The translations under genes were made by a program, and so were the position numbers. A stretch of DNA of 60,085 bases, taken from NCBI GenBank assembly GCA_021325515.1, contig JAJPHC010000021.1:1-60085 (forward strand), given 5' to 3'. This stretch comes from Acidobacteriota bacterium (GTDB taxonomy: Bacteria > Acidobacteriota > Thermoanaerobaculia > Gp7-AA8). The notes under the pieces are model-generated. The model was not told where the DNA came from, did not search any database, and worked only from the letters and a program-made list of their open reading frames with translations. The first letter of the stretch is position 1. The number at the start of each line of letters is the position of its first letter. Below, piece by piece: positions 9,281 to 30,021 of the stretch.

Positions 9281-12112
<2,832 letters not shown>

Positions 12113-23240: not shown

Positions 23241-23296
23241 GCGGGGTTATGGGGTTGGGGGGCGCTGGGGTGCTGGGGCGCTGGGGCGCTGGGTGA
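23241..23296. repeat. G-rich GCGCTGGG array
   Basis: Tandem GGTTATGGGGTTGGGG and GCGCTGGGG units. The complementary array lies at 24544-24585 on the other side of the putative lipoprotein gene, in inverted orientation; a related run is at 54519-54551. Confidence 0.75.
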
Positions 23297-23336: not shown

Positions 23337-23469
23337 CATTCTTCATTCTGAATTCTGTGATTCTGAATTCTGAATTTCGCTTTTTGAACTCTCGTTGACG
23401 AAGACACGGGGAGAGAGGACGAAAAGCGAAATTCAGAATTCAGAATTCAGAATTCAGAATGAAGAATGG
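23337..23469. repeat. GAATTCAG-type inverted repeat, copy 2
   Basis: Left arm carries CATTCTTCATTCTGAATTCT and ends ATTTCGCTTTTT; right arm begins AAAAGCGAAATTCAG, continues with tandem AATTCAG units and ends AATGAAGAATG. Arms are near-perfect complements around a 35-nt loop. Half-units point inward, opposite to the copy at 5793-5888. Confidence 0.85.
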
Positions 23470-23509
23470 CCTTCCGTCCCTTTCCTCTTTTCCCGGGCAT
23501 CCTTTATGA

Positions 23510-24535
23510 ATGATCACTCCGCTTCCTTGGAAGCCGATCGCGATCGTCACGACTACGGCGGCGATCCTGCTCTCGCTTCTTCTCCTTCCTGCCTGCTGTT
23601 GTGTTCGTGGCGTCGCGCCGGCCGCGGGGCCCCCGCCGGTGACGCACATTCCGCCGATCGGCACGGAGCCGATTCCGACTCCGAAGGAGGCCGAGGCGAA
23701 GGCGGCGACCGAGGCGGAGATGGTGAACGTCGACTTTCATTTCGACGAGGTGATGTTTCTCCGCATTCATCATCTGCGCGGGCAGATGCAATCGAAGCAG
23801 CCGGGCGCTCCGCTCAATTTCGATGACAAGACGAGCTTCGTCATGCGCATCGACACCGCGGAAGTCGGGATGCTCACGCCGGCTCTCGACCGCCTGATGA
23901 ACAGCTACGTCTTCAACTATCCCAACCCTCCGCTGCGCAATCTCCACATCACCATGCAGGGAAAGCAGCTCGTGCAGTCGGGCATCATTCACAAAGTCGT
24001 CGACATCCCTTTCACGATGTGGGCGGACGTCTCCGCGAGCGATGGCAGGATCCGCCTGCATCCGACGAAGATCTCGATCTGCGGCATCAATGGCATCGGG
24101 CTCCTCAAGGCGGTGGGAATGTCGCTGCAGAAGATGCTGAAGCTGCCGAAAGATCGCGGTGTCACGGCGGTGGGGAACGACATGCTGCTCGATCCGCAGA
24201 AGCTGCTGCCGCCGCCTGACATCGAGCTGCACCTCGCCGCCGTGCGCGTCGACGGCGACGAGCTCGTGCAGGTCTTCGACGCCGGCCGCCACCTTCCTCC
24301 TCTGACACCTCGCCATACGGAACAGAAGAACTGGATGTATTACCGCCATGGCACGCTGCGGATGGGCAAGCTGCTGATGGTCGACGCCGACATGCAGGTG
24401 GCCGACATGGATCCCAAAGACCCATTCGACTTCTTCATCGATCGCTACAACGATCAACTCGTCGCCGGCTACACGAAGAACCAGGCGGACTACGGATTGC
24501 TCGTGTTCATGAAGGATTTCGATGATCTGAAGTGA
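23510..24535 (+). CDS. putative lipoprotein of unknown function
   Basis: 341 aa. N-terminal hydrophobic stretch TTTAAILLSLLLLPAC ends in an LPAC lipobox-like motif, followed by a Pro-rich linker (PPPVTHIPPIGTEPIPTPKEAEAK). The mature part has a beta-rich region (VDFHFDEVMFLRIHHLRGQM; KTSFVMRIDTAEVGM) and repeated His/Met residues, somewhat like periplasmic lipid-binding DUF2993/LmeA-type proteins, but that is a weak impression. Flanked on both sides by the same G-rich repeat in opposite orientation and preceded by the GAATTCAG repeat. I cannot assign a function. Confidence 0.7.
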   Translation: MITPLPWKPIAIVTTTAAILLSLLLLPACCCVRGVAPAAGPPPVTHIPPIGTEPIPTPKEAEAKAATEAEMVNVDFHFDEVMFLRIHHLRGQMQSKQPGAPLNFDDKTSFVMRIDTAEVGMLTPALDRLMNSYVFNYPNPPLRNLHITMQGKQLVQSGIIHKVVDIPFTMWADVSASDGRIRLHPTKISICGINGIGLLKAVGMSLQKMLKLPKDRGVTAVGNDMLLDPQKLLPPPDIELHLAAVRVDGDELVQVFDAGRHLPPLTPRHTEQKNWMYYRHGTLRMGKLLMVDADMQVADMDPKDPFDFFIDRYNDQLVAGYTKNQADYGLLVFMKDFDDLK

Positions 24536-24543
24536 AGGGTCGC

Positions 24544-24585
24544 TCAACCACTCAGCGCCCCAGCGCCCCAGTAACCCAGTGACCC
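24544..24585. repeat. C-rich CCCAGCGC array
   Basis: CTCAGCGCCCCAGCGCCCCAG, then TAACCCAGTGACCCAATC: the reverse complement of the family at 23241-23296, so the 1-kb gene between lies in an inverted-repeat setting. Confidence 0.75.
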
Positions 24586-24594
24586 AATCAACCA

Positions 24595-24611
24595 TCACAC
24601 CCCATATGTGA
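24595..24611. promoter_or_regulatory. TCAC-N9-GTGA dyad, site 1
   Basis: TCAC at 24595-24598 and GTGA at 24608-24611. Overlaps the annotated GTG start of the FNR-like regulator gene, as expected for autoregulation (or the true start is the GTG at 24656). Same spacing as sites at 25391, 26171 and 27026. Confidence 0.55.
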
Positions 24612-25384
24612 CAACCCCGCTACCATTCAAATCAGCACGGCGCGCACCATCGGGCGTGGTACTGAGAACGCCGCCTTACGGCTTCGAGCTGTTCGATGAC
24701 TGCGGCGCGTGCAAGTGGCGCAACGAGTCATTCTTCTGCAACTTCGACGCGGAGACGCTGAAGGTATTCGAGAACCTCACCTTCACGAATGTCTATCCCG
24801 AAGGGGCGGTGCTGTATGCGGAAGGGCAGCCGTCGCGCGGTGTTTTTCTCGTCTGCCACGGCAGCGCAAAGCTCAGCATCTCGTCGGGCGACGGGAAGAC
24901 GCTCATCACCAAGATCACTGCGCCGGGCGAGTTGCTTGGACTCAGCAGCGCGTTGTCGGGACATGCGTACAAGGCGACTGCGGAGACGATCGAGCCCGCG
25001 CAGGTGAACTTCGTCCGCCGCGAAGACCTTCTCCGTTTCATCTCCGAGCATCACTCGGCGTGTCCTAACATCGCGCGGCAGCTCACGAACGACTGCGAAA
25101 TGGATGAGGATCACATCCGCGCGATCGGCCTCTCGCACTCCGCCGCCGAGAAGCTGGCGAATCTGATTCTCTCCTGGTGCAGCGAGCATGGAAAACCGGG
25201 CGACAACGGCGTTCGCGTTCAGATGCTCATGACGCACGAGGACATCTCGCAATTGATCGGCACCTCGCGCGAGACCGTGACCCGTCTGCTCAAGGAGTTC
25301 CGCGAGAAGAAGCTGATCTCGATCAAGGGCTCGACGCTCATCGTCCACAATCGAGCGGCGTTGGAGGCCCTGGTCCTCCTGTGA
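24608..25384 (+). CDS. Crp/Fnr family transcriptional regulator with N-terminal cysteines
   Basis: 258 aa. N-terminal Cys32-x2-Cys35-x8-Cys44 (DCGACKWRNESFFC), a beta-roll sensor (residues about 45-140), dimer helix, and a C-terminal winged helix with recognition segment ISQLIGTSRETVTRLLKEF, close to the R-E-T-V-x-R of CRP/FNR. E. coli FNR uses four Cys; the fourth, in the beta-roll, has no counterpart here (that position reads AQVNF), although Cys83, Cys152 and Cys163 exist. A redox or Fe-S sensor is likely but unproven. The gene leads the RIC/RIC/cytochrome island and probably controls it. Start is GTG; a later in-frame GTG (24656) is possible. Confidence 0.9.
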   Translation: MTTPLPFKSARRAPSGVVLRTPPYGFELFDDCGACKWRNESFFCNFDAETLKVFENLTFTNVYPEGAVLYAEGQPSRGVFLVCHGSAKLSISSGDGKTLITKITAPGELLGLSSALSGHAYKATAETIEPAQVNFVRREDLLRFISEHHSACPNIARQLTNDCEMDEDHIRAIGLSHSAAEKLANLILSWCSEHGKPGDNGVRVQMLMTHEDISQLIGTSRETVTRLLKEFREKKLISIKGSTLIVHNRAALEALVLL

Positions 25385-25390
25385 TGCGGC

Positions 25391-25407
25391 TCACGAGCGG
25401 GCCGTGA
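25391..25407. promoter_or_regulatory. TCAC-N9-GTGA dyad, site 2
   Basis: TCAC at 25391-25394, GTGA at 25404-25407; the symmetry extends to GCTCACG-N7-CGTGAGC. It lies 45 bp before the first RIC gene and 7 bp after the regulator stop, so it might also serve as a hairpin. Confidence 0.55.
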
Positions 25408-25451
25408 GCGCTGGCCCTGCAACGGATCGCTGCTGCGACTACCTTCTCATC

Positions 25452-26150
25452 ATGACACTCGAATGCGAAGTCGTCCCTCTTGCAGAGCGCTCTCTGTCCG
25501 TCCTCCTGCAGATGTTCCCTCAGGCCGCGGGCGTGCTGGAGGAAGCAGGCATTCTCTTCTGCTGCTACGGCGCGCGAGCGCTTCAGGAGGCGGCGGCCGC
25601 TGCGGGCTACAAGACGGATGACCTGATCGCGATGATCACCGCGCGGCCGGCGGGCAGGAATTTCATCGACTGGATGCAGCGTCCGCTCGCTGATCTCACC
25701 GAATATCTGACGGCGGATCACAAGAGGATCGCGCTGGAGGCGGTACCGGCTCTTCGCGAGCGCATCGACCGCGAGGTGCGCCGCAACCCCGAGGTCTCGG
25801 AATTGAAGCGGATGAAGATCATCTTCGACGACATGGCGTCGAAGCTGACGCCGCACATGGCGCATGAAGAACGCGATCTCTTCCCCTGGATCGCGACGGC
25901 GGAGAACCGGGGCATGCGCGGCATCCGCTTCGCGCAGCGCGTTCTGCGCGAGCACGTCGAGCACAAGGCGACCTGCGATCATCTGCGCACCCTCGGCGAG
26001 CTCGCAGGCCGCGTCCGCATCGACGACGGCCAGCTCTATGCCGCGGTCGAGCAGTTCGCACGCCCCCTCCGCCATCACATTCACCTCGAGAACAACGTGC
26101 TCTATCCGCGCGTGATCGAGGTGGAGAACCGGATGCGCCGCGCGGGATGA
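25452..26150 (+). CDS. RIC family di-iron protein (YtfE/ScdA-like), paralogue 1
   Basis: 232 aa. ScdA_N (DUF542) domain with Cys37-Cys38 (AGILFCCYGARALQEAA) followed by a hemerythrin-like four-helix bundle. RIC proteins protect and repair Fe-S centres and scavenge NO after nitrosative or oxidative stress. Mapping on E. coli YtfE: His90 (H84), His135 and Glu139 (H129, E133), His168 (H160), His209 and Glu213 (H204, E208) are present; the YtfE His105 position falls in REVRRNPE and is not His. An ATG at 25452 is chosen over the longer frame because the upstream residues are not ScdA-like. Confidence 0.9.
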   Translation: MTLECEVVPLAERSLSVLLQMFPQAAGVLEEAGILFCCYGARALQEAAAAAGYKTDDLIAMITARPAGRNFIDWMQRPLADLTEYLTADHKRIALEAVPALRERIDREVRRNPEVSELKRMKIIFDDMASKLTPHMAHEERDLFPWIATAENRGMRGIRFAQRVLREHVEHKATCDHLRTLGELAGRVRIDDGQLYAAVEQFARPLRHHIHLENNVLYPRVIEVENRMRRAG

Positions 26151-26170
26151 CGAGGCCGCGGGGTCATCCG

Positions 26171-26187
26171 TCACACCCGCGCTGTGC
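26171..26187. promoter_or_regulatory. TCAC-N9-GTGC dyad, site 3 (7 of 8)
   Basis: TCAC at 26171-26174 and GTGC at 26184-26187, same spacing as the exact sites, 45 bp before the second RIC gene start. Confidence 0.4.
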
Positions 26188-26231
26188 CGCGCTTCCTGTC
26201 ATCGCAGCAGCGCCGGTCTTATCAATGAGCC

Positions 26232-26942
26232 GTGACTCGTGTACTGACACGCGACCAAATCGGAATTGCCGCGGCGCGGCACCGGGGAATGCGCGAGCTG
26301 TTTGAGGATCTGGGCCTCGATTACTACTGCGAGGGGAATCTCTCGATCGACGAGGCCATCGAAGGCGCCGGTCTCGATTCCCGCGCCCTTCGTTCGCGCA
26401 TCGAGCGGCTCTCCGCCGCCGACGCTGGTCCTGACTGGCCTGATCTGCCGCTCTCCAGTCTGCTCGATTACCTGGAGGGGAAGGACCACGAGGCGGTGCG
26501 GATGGCGATGTTCCGCGCGGCGCTCCTGTTCGGCGAAGTCTGCCACGCCGGTGGCGATCGCCGCCTGATGACCATGCGCATGATCTTTCGCGATTTCAGC
26601 TCCGAAGTGATCGTGCACATGGAGCTCGAGGAGCACACGCTTTTCCCCGCCATCCTGGCGCTGGAGGAGGCGTGGATTCGTGGAGGGGAGCCACCGAGGA
26701 AGATCGAAGGTGGCGTCCGCGCCGCGGCAGCCCGGTTCATGAAGGAACACGCGGTCATCGCCGCCGATCTGCGGACGCTTCGCCGTCAACGCCTCGGCAC
26801 CGAGGCCAATACGGCGGCGGCGGTGGAGCTGTTCGCGCAGTTCGAGGGCCTCGAGCGCGCGCTGCACGAGTCGATGAATCTCGAGAACTGCGTCGCGTTT
26901 CCCCGCGCGCTCGCGCTCGAAGCGGCGATGCGAAATCACTGA
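26232..26942 (+). CDS. RIC family di-iron protein, paralogue 2
   Basis: 236 aa from a GTG. ScdA_N domain with a single Cys33 (LGLDYYCEGNLSIDEAIE) instead of the usual Cys pair, then a hemerythrin-like bundle. Ligand mapping on YtfE: His86 (H84), His105 (H105, in GEVCHAGGD), His129 and Glu133 (H129, E133), His173 (H160), Glu218 (E208); the H204 position is Ser214 (HESMNLENCVAFP). It therefore lacks a different ligand from paralogue 1. Same strand, 81 bp after paralogue 1, with its own dyad motif. Could be a specialised partner, a heterodimer subunit, or on its way to losing iron. Confidence 0.85.
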   Translation: MTRVLTRDQIGIAAARHRGMRELFEDLGLDYYCEGNLSIDEAIEGAGLDSRALRSRIERLSAADAGPDWPDLPLSSLLDYLEGKDHEAVRMAMFRAALLFGEVCHAGGDRRLMTMRMIFRDFSSEVIVHMELEEHTLFPAILALEEAWIRGGEPPRKIEGGVRAAAARFMKEHAVIAADLRTLRRQRLGTEANTAAAVELFAQFEGLERALHESMNLENCVAFPRALALEAAMRNH

Positions 26943-27025
26943 AGGGACAACCGGAGAGCTCGTCCTGGGCCAGTGCGTGCGACAAGCTTCGTCATCGTGC
27001 CGGACACCGATGGACGTACACCTCG

Positions 27026-27042
27026 TCACCCTGCATGCGTGA
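27026..27042. promoter_or_regulatory. TCAC-N9-GTGA dyad, site 4
   Basis: TCAC at 27026-27029, GTGA at 27039-27042, extended to GTCAC/GTGAC; 58 bp before the c/b cytochrome start. Nothing else recognisable in 26943-27100. Confidence 0.55.
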
Positions 27043-27100
27043 CCACCTCGCTACTAAACGCTCTGCTGCAACGCTACGTTAGCGGCGGGGGACCCATGCT

Positions 27101-28945
27101 ATGCGTGCCGCAATCCGGCTCATCCTCGCTGCTGCAGTTCTGCTGATTGGCGGCGCCGTCCGCGCGGAAGTACTCGACAACGCCACATGTCTCGGCTGCC
27201 ACGACAAGGTGGACGCCGCGAAGTTCGCGAATTCCGTTCATGGACCGCTGCAGTGTGCCGACTGTCACGCCGACATCACGTCGGCTCCTCACGACACGCC
27301 CCCGAAAAAAGTCGACTGCAGTCCCTGCCACAGTGAGGTCGTCTCCGCCTGGATGAACAGCGTTCATGCGGCGAGTCAGACGGGGAAGGCGCCCCATTGC
27401 CTCGATTGCCACGGATCGCCGCACGAGATTCTGCCGTCGGCCGACAAGGCGTCGAAGACGAATCACGCGAATATCCCTGCGACCTGTGCGAGCTGTCACG
27501 GGCAGAAGTTCGTCGTCCAGAAGGCCGGACTGACCACGCAGCCGGCCGCTTCGTATCAGGACAGTGTGCATGGCCGCGCGGTGTACAACGGCTCTACGAA
27601 AGCTGCTGTCTGCACCGATTGCCATGATGCCCATCAGGTGCTGCCCGGCAACAATCCGCAATCGGGAATCTTCAAGTTCAATGTGCCGCGCACATGCGGC
27701 AGGTGCCATGCCGCGATCGCCACAGCGTATGGAAAGGGAGTGCACGGGCGGGCGCTGCAGCACGGCAACTGGAGCGCGCCTGTCTGCACGGACTGCCACG
27801 GCATTCATGCGATCTCGAAGACGTCGGACCTGAGCCGCGGGCCGCGGGCGAGCTGCCAGCATTGTCATGACGGCGTGCGTCTGACGCGCGAGTTCGCGGT
27901 GCCGGCCGACCGCGCCGAGAGCTATGCCGCGAGCTATCACGGCATGGCGCGCAAGGTCGGGTCGACGGTGGCCGCCGATTGCGCGAGCTGTCATGGCGCG
28001 CACGACATCTTCCCGTCCAACGATCCGCGCTCCTCGATCAATCCGGCGAACCTGCCGAAGACCTGCGGCAAGTGCCATCAGGGTGCGCAGGCGAATTTCG
28101 GGCAGGGCAAGGTTCACCTCATGGCCAACGACGTGAGCGACGCGCCGTCGAAGGCGCTGACGTGGATCCGCTGGATCTACATCGTGCTGATCGTCCTGAC
28201 CATCGGCGGCATGGCGCTGCACAACATCGTGATCTGGGTGCACAAGGCGCGGTTGAAGAGGCAGGCGCGCCACGGCCGGCTCGTGACGCGGATGAACCTC
28301 AACCAGCGGCTGCAGCACGGGACGATGGTCATCAGCTTCACCGTGCTGGTCGTCAGCGGCTTCGCACTGATCTGGCCCGAGTCGTGGCTCGGCCAGGCGT
28401 TCTTCACGGAGATGATCCGCCGCTGCGTACACCGCACCGCCGCAGTCGTCATGATCCTTCTCGGCCTCTATCACATGGCGTATATGGCAGGGACGAAGGA
28501 AGGAAGAAAGGGCTTGCGCGATTTCTGGTTCCGCGCAAGAGACATCGGCGATGCGTTCCGCACCATGCGCTACTACCTCGGGCTGTCGGACACGAAGCCG
28601 GAGTTCGGGCGCTTCACGTATGCGGAGAAGGCGGAGTACTGGGCGGGGATGTGGGGCACGGTGGTCATGGCGATCACGGGACTGCTGATCTGGTTCAACG
28701 TGACGACGACGGCGCTGATGCCGCGCTGGTGGATCGACATCGCCACGACGATTCACTTCTTCGAAGGAATTCTGGCCACGCTGGCCATCATCGTCTGGCA
28801 CTTCTATCACGTGATCTTCGACCCCGACACCTATCCGATGAACTGGGCGTGGTTCGACGGCCAGATGACCGAGGAGCATTACAGAGAGGAGCACGGACTC
28901 GACGGGGAGACGCTGAAAACGGATTCAGAGCCGGCGGAGAAGTAG
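27101..28945 (+). CDS. fused undecaheme cytochrome c / membrane cytochrome b
   Basis: 614 aa. Signal peptide, then eleven CXXCH motifs in residues about 30-340 (CLGCH, CADCH, CSPCH, CLDCH, CASCH, CTDCH, CGRCH, CTDCH, CQHCH, CASCH, CGKCH), then a C-terminal membrane part from about residue 350 with several helices and conserved His (GGMALHNIVIW, NQRLQHGTMVISFTVLVVSG, RTAAVVMILLGLYHMAYM, HFFEGILATLAIIVWHFYHVIF), like FdnI/NarI-type diheme cytochrome b. The order c-hemes then b-domain is that of Geobacter CbcL, an inner-membrane quinol oxidase used in extracellular or low-potential respiration. A quinol-to-periplasm electron route is the most reasonable role. Confidence 0.92.
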   Translation: MRAAIRLILAAAVLLIGGAVRAEVLDNATCLGCHDKVDAAKFANSVHGPLQCADCHADITSAPHDTPPKKVDCSPCHSEVVSAWMNSVHAASQTGKAPHCLDCHGSPHEILPSADKASKTNHANIPATCASCHGQKFVVQKAGLTTQPAASYQDSVHGRAVYNGSTKAAVCTDCHDAHQVLPGNNPQSGIFKFNVPRTCGRCHAAIATAYGKGVHGRALQHGNWSAPVCTDCHGIHAISKTSDLSRGPRASCQHCHDGVRLTREFAVPADRAESYAASYHGMARKVGSTVAADCASCHGAHDIFPSNDPRSSINPANLPKTCGKCHQGAQANFGQGKVHLMANDVSDAPSKALTWIRWIYIVLIVLTIGGMALHNIVIWVHKARLKRQARHGRLVTRMNLNQRLQHGTMVISFTVLVVSGFALIWPESWLGQAFFTEMIRRCVHRTAAVVMILLGLYHMAYMAGTKEGRKGLRDFWFRARDIGDAFRTMRYYLGLSDTKPEFGRFTYAEKAEYWAGMWGTVVMAITGLLIWFNVTTTALMPRWWIDIATTIHFFEGILATLAIIVWHFYHVIFDPDTYPMNWAWFDGQMTEEHYREEHGLDGETLKTDSEPAEK

Positions 28946-29133
28946 CGTCGCGCGGGGAGAGCTTCGTGACCGTGGCTCTGGACCTGGTGTGCGGGCGATA
29001 TTGGTCGCTGGTACTCCTCGATCAGCGTTCAGATGTCCGTCTCTCCCCGTAACCCTGCTCACTCCCTCGGGTGACCTCCGTCCTCCTTTCGTTTCACGAA
29101 TGAGCGTATCGATGGGTGCAGGAGGTCGTCGTC

Positions 29134-30021
29134 ATGACCTACGACATCCGCCACATCCTCGTTCCCATCGACATGAGCAGCTCCGGCGCGGCGTCGCTGC
29201 AGTACGCGGCGCACTTCTCCTGCCGGCTCCTCGCGCCGGTCACCGTCATGTACGCCGATCCGCTCGTCTATCCGGCGGACATCCTCCCGGCCGAGGCTGT
29301 GGCGCTCACGGCGACGCCTGAATACGACTCGCGGCTGCATCAGGAGATTCGCGACTTCGCCCGCGTCTCGATGCGCGACTGGCCCTTCGATGTCGACATC
29401 CGCTACGGCCCGCCCGCGCCCGCAATCCTTCGCGCCGCACGCGAGGCCGATGCGCGGCTCATCGTCATGGGCTCGCATCTCCATCGCGGCTGGCGCAGTG
29501 CGCTCGTCGGCTCCGTCACCTCCGCCGTCATCCACGGCGCGAGCTGTCCCGTGATGACCGTCGGCGGCCGGCTCGATGGCGACAAGCCGCACATCACGCG
29601 CGTTCTCTGCCCGATCAACTTCACCGATGTCGCGCGCCAGTCGCTCCGCTTCGCGTCGATGCTCGCCGATGTCTTCGCCGCGGAGCTCGTCGTCGTACAC
29701 GTCGCGGAGCCGGGCCAGCCGCTGATCGCCGAGTCGCACGTGCGCGACTGGATCGAGCCGGAGATGCGCCAGAACGCGAAGTATCGCGAAGTCGTCATGC
29801 GCGGCGGTCCCGCCGAGCGCGTCCTCGACTGCGCCGAAGACCTCGGCGCCGACCTGCTCGTGGTCGGCGCTCAGCACAAGCTGTTCCGCGACGCGACCGT
29901 CATCGGCTCGACGACCGAACGCCTGATCCGCTTCGCCGATTGCCCGGTCATCACCTTCCCGGTCACGCTGCAAAGGCTGAAGACCGTCGCCGTCGAGAAG
30001 GAGGAGGTGACCGTCTCATGA
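29134..30021 (+). CDS. tandem-domain universal stress protein
   Basis: 295 aa; two UspA domains. Domain 1 (ILVPIDMSSSGAASLQYAAHF ... IVMGSHLHRGWRSALVGSVTSAVIHGASCPVMTV) has the G-x2-G-x9-G(S/T) ATP-binding pattern; domain 2 (RVLCPINFTDVARQSLRFA ... LLVVGAQHKLFRDATVIGSTTERLIRFADCPVITF) likewise. ATG at 29134 has GGAGGT 7 nt upstream. Its stop overlaps the next start (ATGA), so it is coupled to the two ATPase-like genes. The 188 bp upstream hold no other gene; an imperfect TCAC-N8-GTGA at 29059-29074 is one base short of the island motif. Confidence 0.92.
   Translation: MTYDIRHILVPIDMSSSGAASLQYAAHFSCRLLAPVTVMYADPLVYPADILPAEAVALTATPEYDSRLHQEIRDFARVSMRDWPFDVDIRYGPPAPAILRAAREADARLIVMGSHLHRGWRSALVGSVTSAVIHGASCPVMTVGGRLDGDKPHITRVLCPINFTDVARQSLRFASMLADVFAAELVVVHVAEPGQPLIAESHVRDWIEPEMRQNAKYREVVMRGGPAERVLDCAEDLGADLLVVGAQHKLFRDATVIGSTTERLIRFADCPVITFPVTLQRLKTVAVEKEEVTVS

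Follow-up and report, generated by a model that had tools for sequence, protein, structure and literature searches.

Within a 60,085-nucleotide stretch of an Acidobacteriota genome (contig JAJPHC010000021.1, positions 1 to 60,085; hereafter the window), a Crp/Fnr-family regulator gene is followed by genes for two iron-sulfur repair proteins (RIC1 and RIC2), a multihaem cytochrome and a universal stress protein (USP). A preliminary description of this island had noted a TCAC-N9-GTGA dyad in the spacers ahead of the first four genes and had read it as a non-canonical operator with half-sites facing the wrong way. Our analysis points to a different arrangement, to which we assign a probability of about 0.77: the dyad would mark the join between two canonical boxes in tandem, [GTGA-N6-TCAC]-N8/9-[GTGA-N6-TCAC], in which the outer halves have probably decayed to varying degrees, leaving the outward-facing inner pair visible.

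The dyads themselves are genuine and non-random. All four lie where they had been placed, each preceding the gene named, three of them exact and the one at RIC2 matching at 7/8 positions (Table 1). Two features of the island had been overlooked, a fifth site with an N8 linker ahead of the USP gene and an exact canonical CRP/FNR box ahead of RIC1. Exact TCAC-N9-GTGA occurs three times in the window, always at island genes, and 0.91 +/- 1.06 times in shuffled versions of it. Among the 60 exact matches in the whole genome (5.38 Mb in 63 contigs), 38 of the 50 inspected fall within coding sequence, so that three spacer dyads within 2.4 kb do not represent background; in line with this, about 60 kb of non-coding DNA sampled from the same genome yielded a single N9 dyad outside the window. 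The Poisson probability of three exact dyads per 2.45 kb is approximately 3e-6, a value that is not corrected for the motif having been picked beforehand from the same data. Together with the conservation in orthologs described below, this clustering bears out the earlier claim of recurrence beyond chance. It is true that 5 of 100 window shuffles reach three or more matches and that the motif was selected after viewing the data, but a mere cluster of eight fixed bases recurring in GC-rich spacers is extremely improbable, as it is contradicted by five cytochrome orthologs, by a TA dinucleotide at N32 in four of five promoters and by a family-wide enrichment at one spacing.

The tandem nature of the sites becomes apparent from related genomes, which are metagenome-assembled genomes of Acidobacteriota, class Thermoanaerobaculia. 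In GTDB genomes, the regions upstream of 80 regulator homologs are strongly enriched in two half-site arrangements, GTGA-N6-TCAC (65 sites at 43 loci) and TCAC-N8-GTGA (42 sites at 34 loci), and all other spacings give 0-6 occurrences. The inverted arrangement is enriched because the canonical boxes come in tandem, and the gap between them reads as an inverted site. The distance of near-canonical boxes from an exact box peaks at 22 bp (44 vs a mean of 4), and a further half-site stands at exactly N6 on the right of TCAC-N8-GTGA in 16/36 cases (with at least a 3/4 match) and on the left in 8/36, 7 of these being exact. Whole-genome searches covered 61 genomes; among the matches listed for TCAC-N5..12-GTGA-N6-TCAC, 63/150 have the N8 linker. 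Complete tandems with an N9 linker were found at two loci in genome G005 (e.g. GTGAGCTGCATCACAGGGCTGAAGTGACAGGGGTCAC) and at one locus in G014. Given that outer halves accumulate at precisely N6 to either side and that complete tandems occur, the description of the half-sites as non-canonical and wrongly oriented is not supported.

Alternatively, TCAC-N8/9-GTGA might itself be the operator of a single dimer, either from another family or from a Crp/Fnr protein binding in an unusual manner, centred at about -53. The inner pair alone is strong at the regulator, cytochrome and RIC2 sites, and a 29-bp extended element, TCAC-N9-GTGAC-N-ACC-N-CGCTAC, is common to the regulator (24595-24623) and cytochrome (27026-27054) spacers; no third genomic copy was found with two mismatches allowed, and the tandem-box model alone leaves this shared element without explanation. 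Such an operator is nevertheless quite unlikely, given the enrichment of outer half-sites at exactly N6 on both sides, the complete canonical tandems and the upstream box that cytochrome orthologs retain, and because a linker of either 8 or 9 would be poorly tolerated by one rigid dimer.

A second line of evidence for the tandem boxes is their fixed distance to a predicted -10 element. At four of the five island genes a TA occurs exactly 32 nt past the second half-site, for which the chance, given that TA occurs in non-coding DNA at a frequency of 1.7%, is 4e-7, or 2e-5 over 55 offsets. The same spacing was observed in the wider set of loci after de-replication by clustering at 60% identity. 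Following the 275 TCAC-N8-GTGA sites of this set, TANNNT has its peak at N32 (20 vs a mean of 1.5), as it does following TCAC-N9-GTGA (4 vs 0.2); following GTGA-N6-TCAC it peaks at N22 (17) and N44 (30) (vs 2.3), and two control spacings show no TANNNT peak. The consensus of the promoters with TA at N32 is tGTGAcg...GTCACa....cccGTGAC.....TCACtGc...ccTAt..T, in which the outer halves match at 70% and 78% vs 21-27% in the surrounding sequence. Relative to the predicted starts, the downstream box would be centred at about -41.5, as in class II promoters, with the upstream box at about -63.5 (N8) or -64.5 (N9). For the regulator and cytochrome genes CTACCAT/CTACTAA, just past the dyad, had been considered as the -10 and was dropped, as orthologs show TAYTGT at N32-33. 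In some homologous regulator promoters (e.g. L168, L181) the dyad lies on or just past a TATAGT hexamer, which would suit repressor operators instead of activator sites; we consider this rather unlikely, since both in the island and in many promoters of the de-replicated set the downstream box would lie where a class II activator binds.

The distance from the second half-site to the start codon is 45 nt in the regulator, RIC1 and RIC2 (with GTG or ATG starts), and the transcripts of these three genes are therefore predicted to start at or beside the start codon, i.e., to be leaderless. Approximately 13% of genes were predicted to be leaderless in three Acidobacteria (PMC3160421).

Conservation of the sites in orthologous spacers, whose absence would have spoken against the preliminary description, was found to differ between the genes. 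It is clearest for the cytochrome, where the orthologs with 63-66% identity (G013, G017, G005, G004 and G008) preserve an exact TCAC-N9-GTGA in 5/5 cases, with a canonical box upstream of it that matches at 8/8 positions in G005 and G008 and at 7/8 in G013, G017 and G004; the corresponding box in the present genome matches at 6/8 (GTAC-N6-TCAC). The remoter cytochrome orthologs (G016, G009, G011 and G002) have no exact dyad. At RIC1 the dyad is conserved at 7/8 positions in the two closest orthologous loci (TCAC-N9-GTGC in G013 and TCAC-N9-GTTA in G004), and the canonical box is exact in these loci (CGTGACGGCGCTCACC and TGTGACGTCGCTCACA, respectively) and in G000, and 7/8 in G003 and G012. The regulator promoter is the least conserved, with TCAC-N8-GTGA in G013 and two 7/8 boxes 22 bp apart in G004. 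Boxes are mostly missing from remoter RIC homologs elsewhere in the genomes, so that membership of the regulon does not follow from being a RIC gene, and the exact FNR-type core TTGA-N6-TCAA was found upstream of none of 29 RIC homologs. Ahead of the RIC gene of G004 (L075, around 10095-10125), a perfect inverted repeat, TGTGTTA-N12-TAACACA, lies downstream of the canonical box and is possibly a second operator.

When the full pattern TCAC-N8/9-GTGA-N32/33-TANNNT is counted across the family and the class, the tandem architecture appears to be enriched only where the regulator group is present: pattern and control counts are 113 and 19 in the 13 genomes of the family that carry the group, 4 and 4 in the 5 that lack it, and 14 and 20 in 43 further genomes of the class. 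The co-occurrence is reflected in Mann-Whitney p values of 0.003 within the family and 2.5e-8 overall, which are indicative, as the genomes are non-independent lineages. The same promoter architecture thus recurs in most family genomes with the regulator group, and the new, local regulon that had been proposed is not supported.

The island regulator contains a cNMP-like beta-barrel (PF00027) and an HTH_Crp domain (PF13545), both above cut-off, and the best structural matches of its predicted model (built from 49 sequences, predicted local distance difference test (pLDDT) score 86, replacing a 10-sequence model with pLDDT 59) are CRP and GlxR. It scores well under the cut-off of the NCBIfam CRP model (57 vs 266 bits). 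A recognition helix reading RETVTR is found at residue 205 and in 47/49 homologs, with the equivalents of R180, E181 and R185 present. FNR reads TTGAT-N4-ATCAA via E209, S212 and R213; the putative operators of the island do not appear to be of this FNR sensu stricto type, as the canonical sites read TGTGAy-N4-rTCACA. In CRP-type proteins R180 and E181 go with TGTGA (PMC1274295), and by its domains and these contact residues the protein would be a Crp/Fnr regulator with CRP-type site specificity. Cysteines C16, C19, C28 and C67 (numbered from the GTG at 24656) are invariant in 49/49 homologs, with C67 placed by the alignment in the beta-barrel, away from the position of FNR C122. This suggests a redox- or nitric oxide-sensitive metal site that is FNR-like with its fourth ligand elsewhere.

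Several observations weigh against tandem boxes read by this regulator. In this genome, three of the genes (regulator, cytochrome and RIC2) have very weak outer half-sites, and in the N9 class as a whole the left outer half stands out (61% vs 25%) and the right one does not (36% vs 27%, n=7). Linker 9 is itself a minority, with linker 8 prevailing among relatives. TA is absent from N32 in the promoter of the regulator itself; G015 has a homolog of the regulator and zero sites with the full pattern; and non-coding calls were made with a simple home-made gene finder. Finally, at least two paralogs with RETVTR are encoded in the same genome (contigs C2 and C61).

As had been presumed, the motif is very probably read by a regulator of Crp/Fnr type like the local one; two paralogs share the helix of the island regulator, which is therefore a likely rather than a certain binder. 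The tandem boxes may be real and yet serve these paralogs, or all three regulators, without a dedicated local regulon. Canonical boxes in this genome also precede the C61 paralog, pyruvate:ferredoxin oxidoreductase (PFOR) and radical-SAM genes, and G005 and G017 have no close ortholog of the island regulator (at least 55% identity) yet retain the N9 dyad of the cytochrome. Set against this are the adjacency of regulator and RIC genes in five genomes, with the RIC box conserved there, and a neighbouring rhodanese-like gene in G013 that likewise shows an N9 dyad and, at N32, a TA; we regard control by the paralogs as a real possibility of less than even odds. It is also conceivable, if quite doubtful, that linker length acts as an address code, with N9 (23-bp) sites for the regulator of RIC and cytochrome genes and N8 (22-bp) sites for the paralogs with the same helix.

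Autoregulation, which had also been suggested, is possible but has the least behind it: neither a recognisable partner half-site nor a TA at N32 is present in the promoter of the regulator gene, and a copy of the dispersed (CAGCGCCC)n repeat adjoins the site. This repeat may have displaced the upstream half-site. It is an 8-bp repeat that often forms short arrays, and a further copy lies at 23265-23291.

The mechanism that we infer follows from the tandem-box reading, in which Crp/Fnr-family dimers would recognize an operator of the form [GTGA-N6-TCAC]-N8/N9-[GTGA-N6-TCAC]-N22-TANNNT. Two dimers, either of the island regulator or of a paralog that shares its RETVTR helix, would bind 22-23 bp apart and on roughly the same side of the DNA. 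The downstream dimer, at about -41.5, would act as a class II activator that contacts RNA polymerase instead of a -35 element, and the upstream dimer, at about -63.5/-64.5, would add binding energy or a contact with the C-terminal domain of the alpha subunit. As the outer halves in this genome are degenerate, occupancy would depend on co-operativity. The predicted outcome is activation of the two iron-sulfur repair proteins, the cytochrome and the stress protein, and control of these redox and RIC genes by tandem Crp/Fnr dimers is likely on the basis of the sequence features above.

Tandem promoters of the Crp family are already known as a kind. The CRP motifs of E. coli are concentrated at -41.5, -61.5 and -93.5 (PMC5957442), and its tandem CRP promoters (class II at -41.5 with an upstream box, and class III) resemble those predicted here in having two in-line boxes, of which the downstream one overlaps the -35 region at -41.5, together with a TANNNT-like -10 and dimers on about the same helical face. 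In contrast to E. coli, the spacing here is fixed at 22-23 bp over many genes and genomes, and the outer halves are often decayed. The island regulator shares with FNR of E. coli and with the FNR structures from Aliivibrio the Crp/Fnr fold, an N-terminal CxxC...C with one further invariant cysteine and, putatively, the control of redox genes, but its RETVTR helix predicts TGTGA and its fourth cysteine, C67, is in the beta-barrel. HcpR of Desulfovibrio is similarly a Crp/Fnr regulator of nitrosative-stress genes, with the site wTGTGAnnnnnnTCACAw, but lacks the FNR-type cysteine motif (PMC1274295), whereas the present regulator has four invariant cysteines and RIC, cytochrome and USP genes as putative targets. 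HcpR of P. gingivalis is reported to bind haem (PMC12750200). RIC, YtfE and ScdA genes are controlled by NsrR, DnrD or NorR, likewise stress-responsive regulators; control by an adjacent Crp/Fnr regulator via tandem TGTGA boxes was not among the RIC cases found in PMC9268430. Within a partial coverage of the literature, we found no closer precedent for FNR/CRP sites in tandem 22-23 bp apart, and no described acidobacterial Fnr-type regulon. What is new is the stereotyped 22/23-bp spacing across an acidobacterial family, the frequent decay of outer halves that makes the tandem look like an inverted site, and the association with a group of four-cysteine regulators of which no description was found in the literature.

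The apparent new operator thereby becomes a promoter grammar, with two boxes joined by a linker of set length and placed at a set distance from the -10, that can be scanned for in Acidobacteriota. It predicts as targets RIC, cytochromes, CcmC-like and rhodanese-like proteins, radical-SAM genes and the regulators themselves, as well as transcription starts and several leaderless mRNAs. A caution also follows, as searches for outward-facing dyads may pick up tandem canonical boxes.

Table 1. Sites, predicted promoter elements and genes of the island (positions in the window).
Feature	Position	Strand	Remarks
Dispersed (CAGCGCCC)n repeat copy	24553-24571	+	directly upstream of regulator dyad; 27 matches at ~15 genomic places
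Regulator dyad TCAC-N9-GTGA, TCACACCCCATATGTGA	24595-24611	+	exact; outer half-sites unrecognisable (CAAT 24585-24588, CGCT 24618-24621)
Crp/Fnr-family regulator gene	24656-25384	+	GTG start suggested by the N-termini of orthologs; four Cys invariant; RETVTR in recognition helix
RIC1 upstream box, canonical CRP/FNR box GTGATGCGGCTCAC	25381-25394	+	exact; overlaps RIC1 dyad; predicted centre -64.5
RIC1 dyad TCAC-N9-GTGA, TCACGAGCGGGCCGTGA	25391-25407	+	exact; TCAC is right half of box 25381-25394
RIC1 predicted -10, TACCTT	25440-25445	+	32 nt after GTGA; TATCGT at equal spacing in G013
RIC1 gene, ScdA_N-hemerythrin iron-sulfur repair protein	25452-26150	+	predicted leaderless ATG
RIC2 tandem site GGGT-N6-TCAC-N9-GTGC-N6-TCCT	26161-26197	+	dyad TCACACCCGCGCTGTGC at 26171-26187, 7/8
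RIC2 predicted -10, TATCAA	26220-26225	+	32 nt after second half-site
RIC2 gene, ScdA_N-hemerythrin protein	26232-26942	+	both Pfam domains
Cytochrome tandem site GTAC-N6-TCAC-N9-GTGA-N6-CGCT	27016-27052	+	dyad TCACCCTGCATGCGTGA at 27026-27042, exact
Cytochrome predicted -10, TACGTT	27075-27080	+	32 nt after GTGA; TAYTGT at N32 or N33 in orthologs
Multihaem cytochrome c/b561-type membrane cytochrome fusion gene	27101-28945	+	five orthologs at 63-66% identity
USP tandem site GTAA-N6-TCAC-N8-GTGA-N6-TCCT	29049-29084	+	dyad at 29059-29074; fifth island member, N8 linker
USP predicted -10, TATCGA	29107-29112	+	32 nt after GTGA
Double-domain universal stress protein gene	29134-30021	+	ATG 29134, AGGAGG upstream

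With respect to the island genes, RIC2 is above the Pfam cut-offs for both ScdA_N and hemerythrin HHE, and RIC1 is above the hemerythrin cut-off and slightly under that for ScdA_N (32.1 vs 32.5). This domain combination places both proteins in the predicted RIC/YtfE family, with a match to TIGR03652 under the equivalog cut-off.

Around paralogous Crp/Fnr genes, two further features were observed. A paralog lies near a PFOR gene (L083, 6500-7930), both with canonical boxes, and the pairing is also present in G009 and G011. Palindromes of the form CCCACCCC-N-GGGGTGGG are located ahead of several of these genes (L025, L026, L041-L044); they resemble CsoR-type copper operators and may point to a link with copper. 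In the window itself, inverted (GAATTCA)n arrays at 23340-23470, between an ABC transporter gene and a 341-aa gene at 23510, look like a dispersed palindromic repeat.

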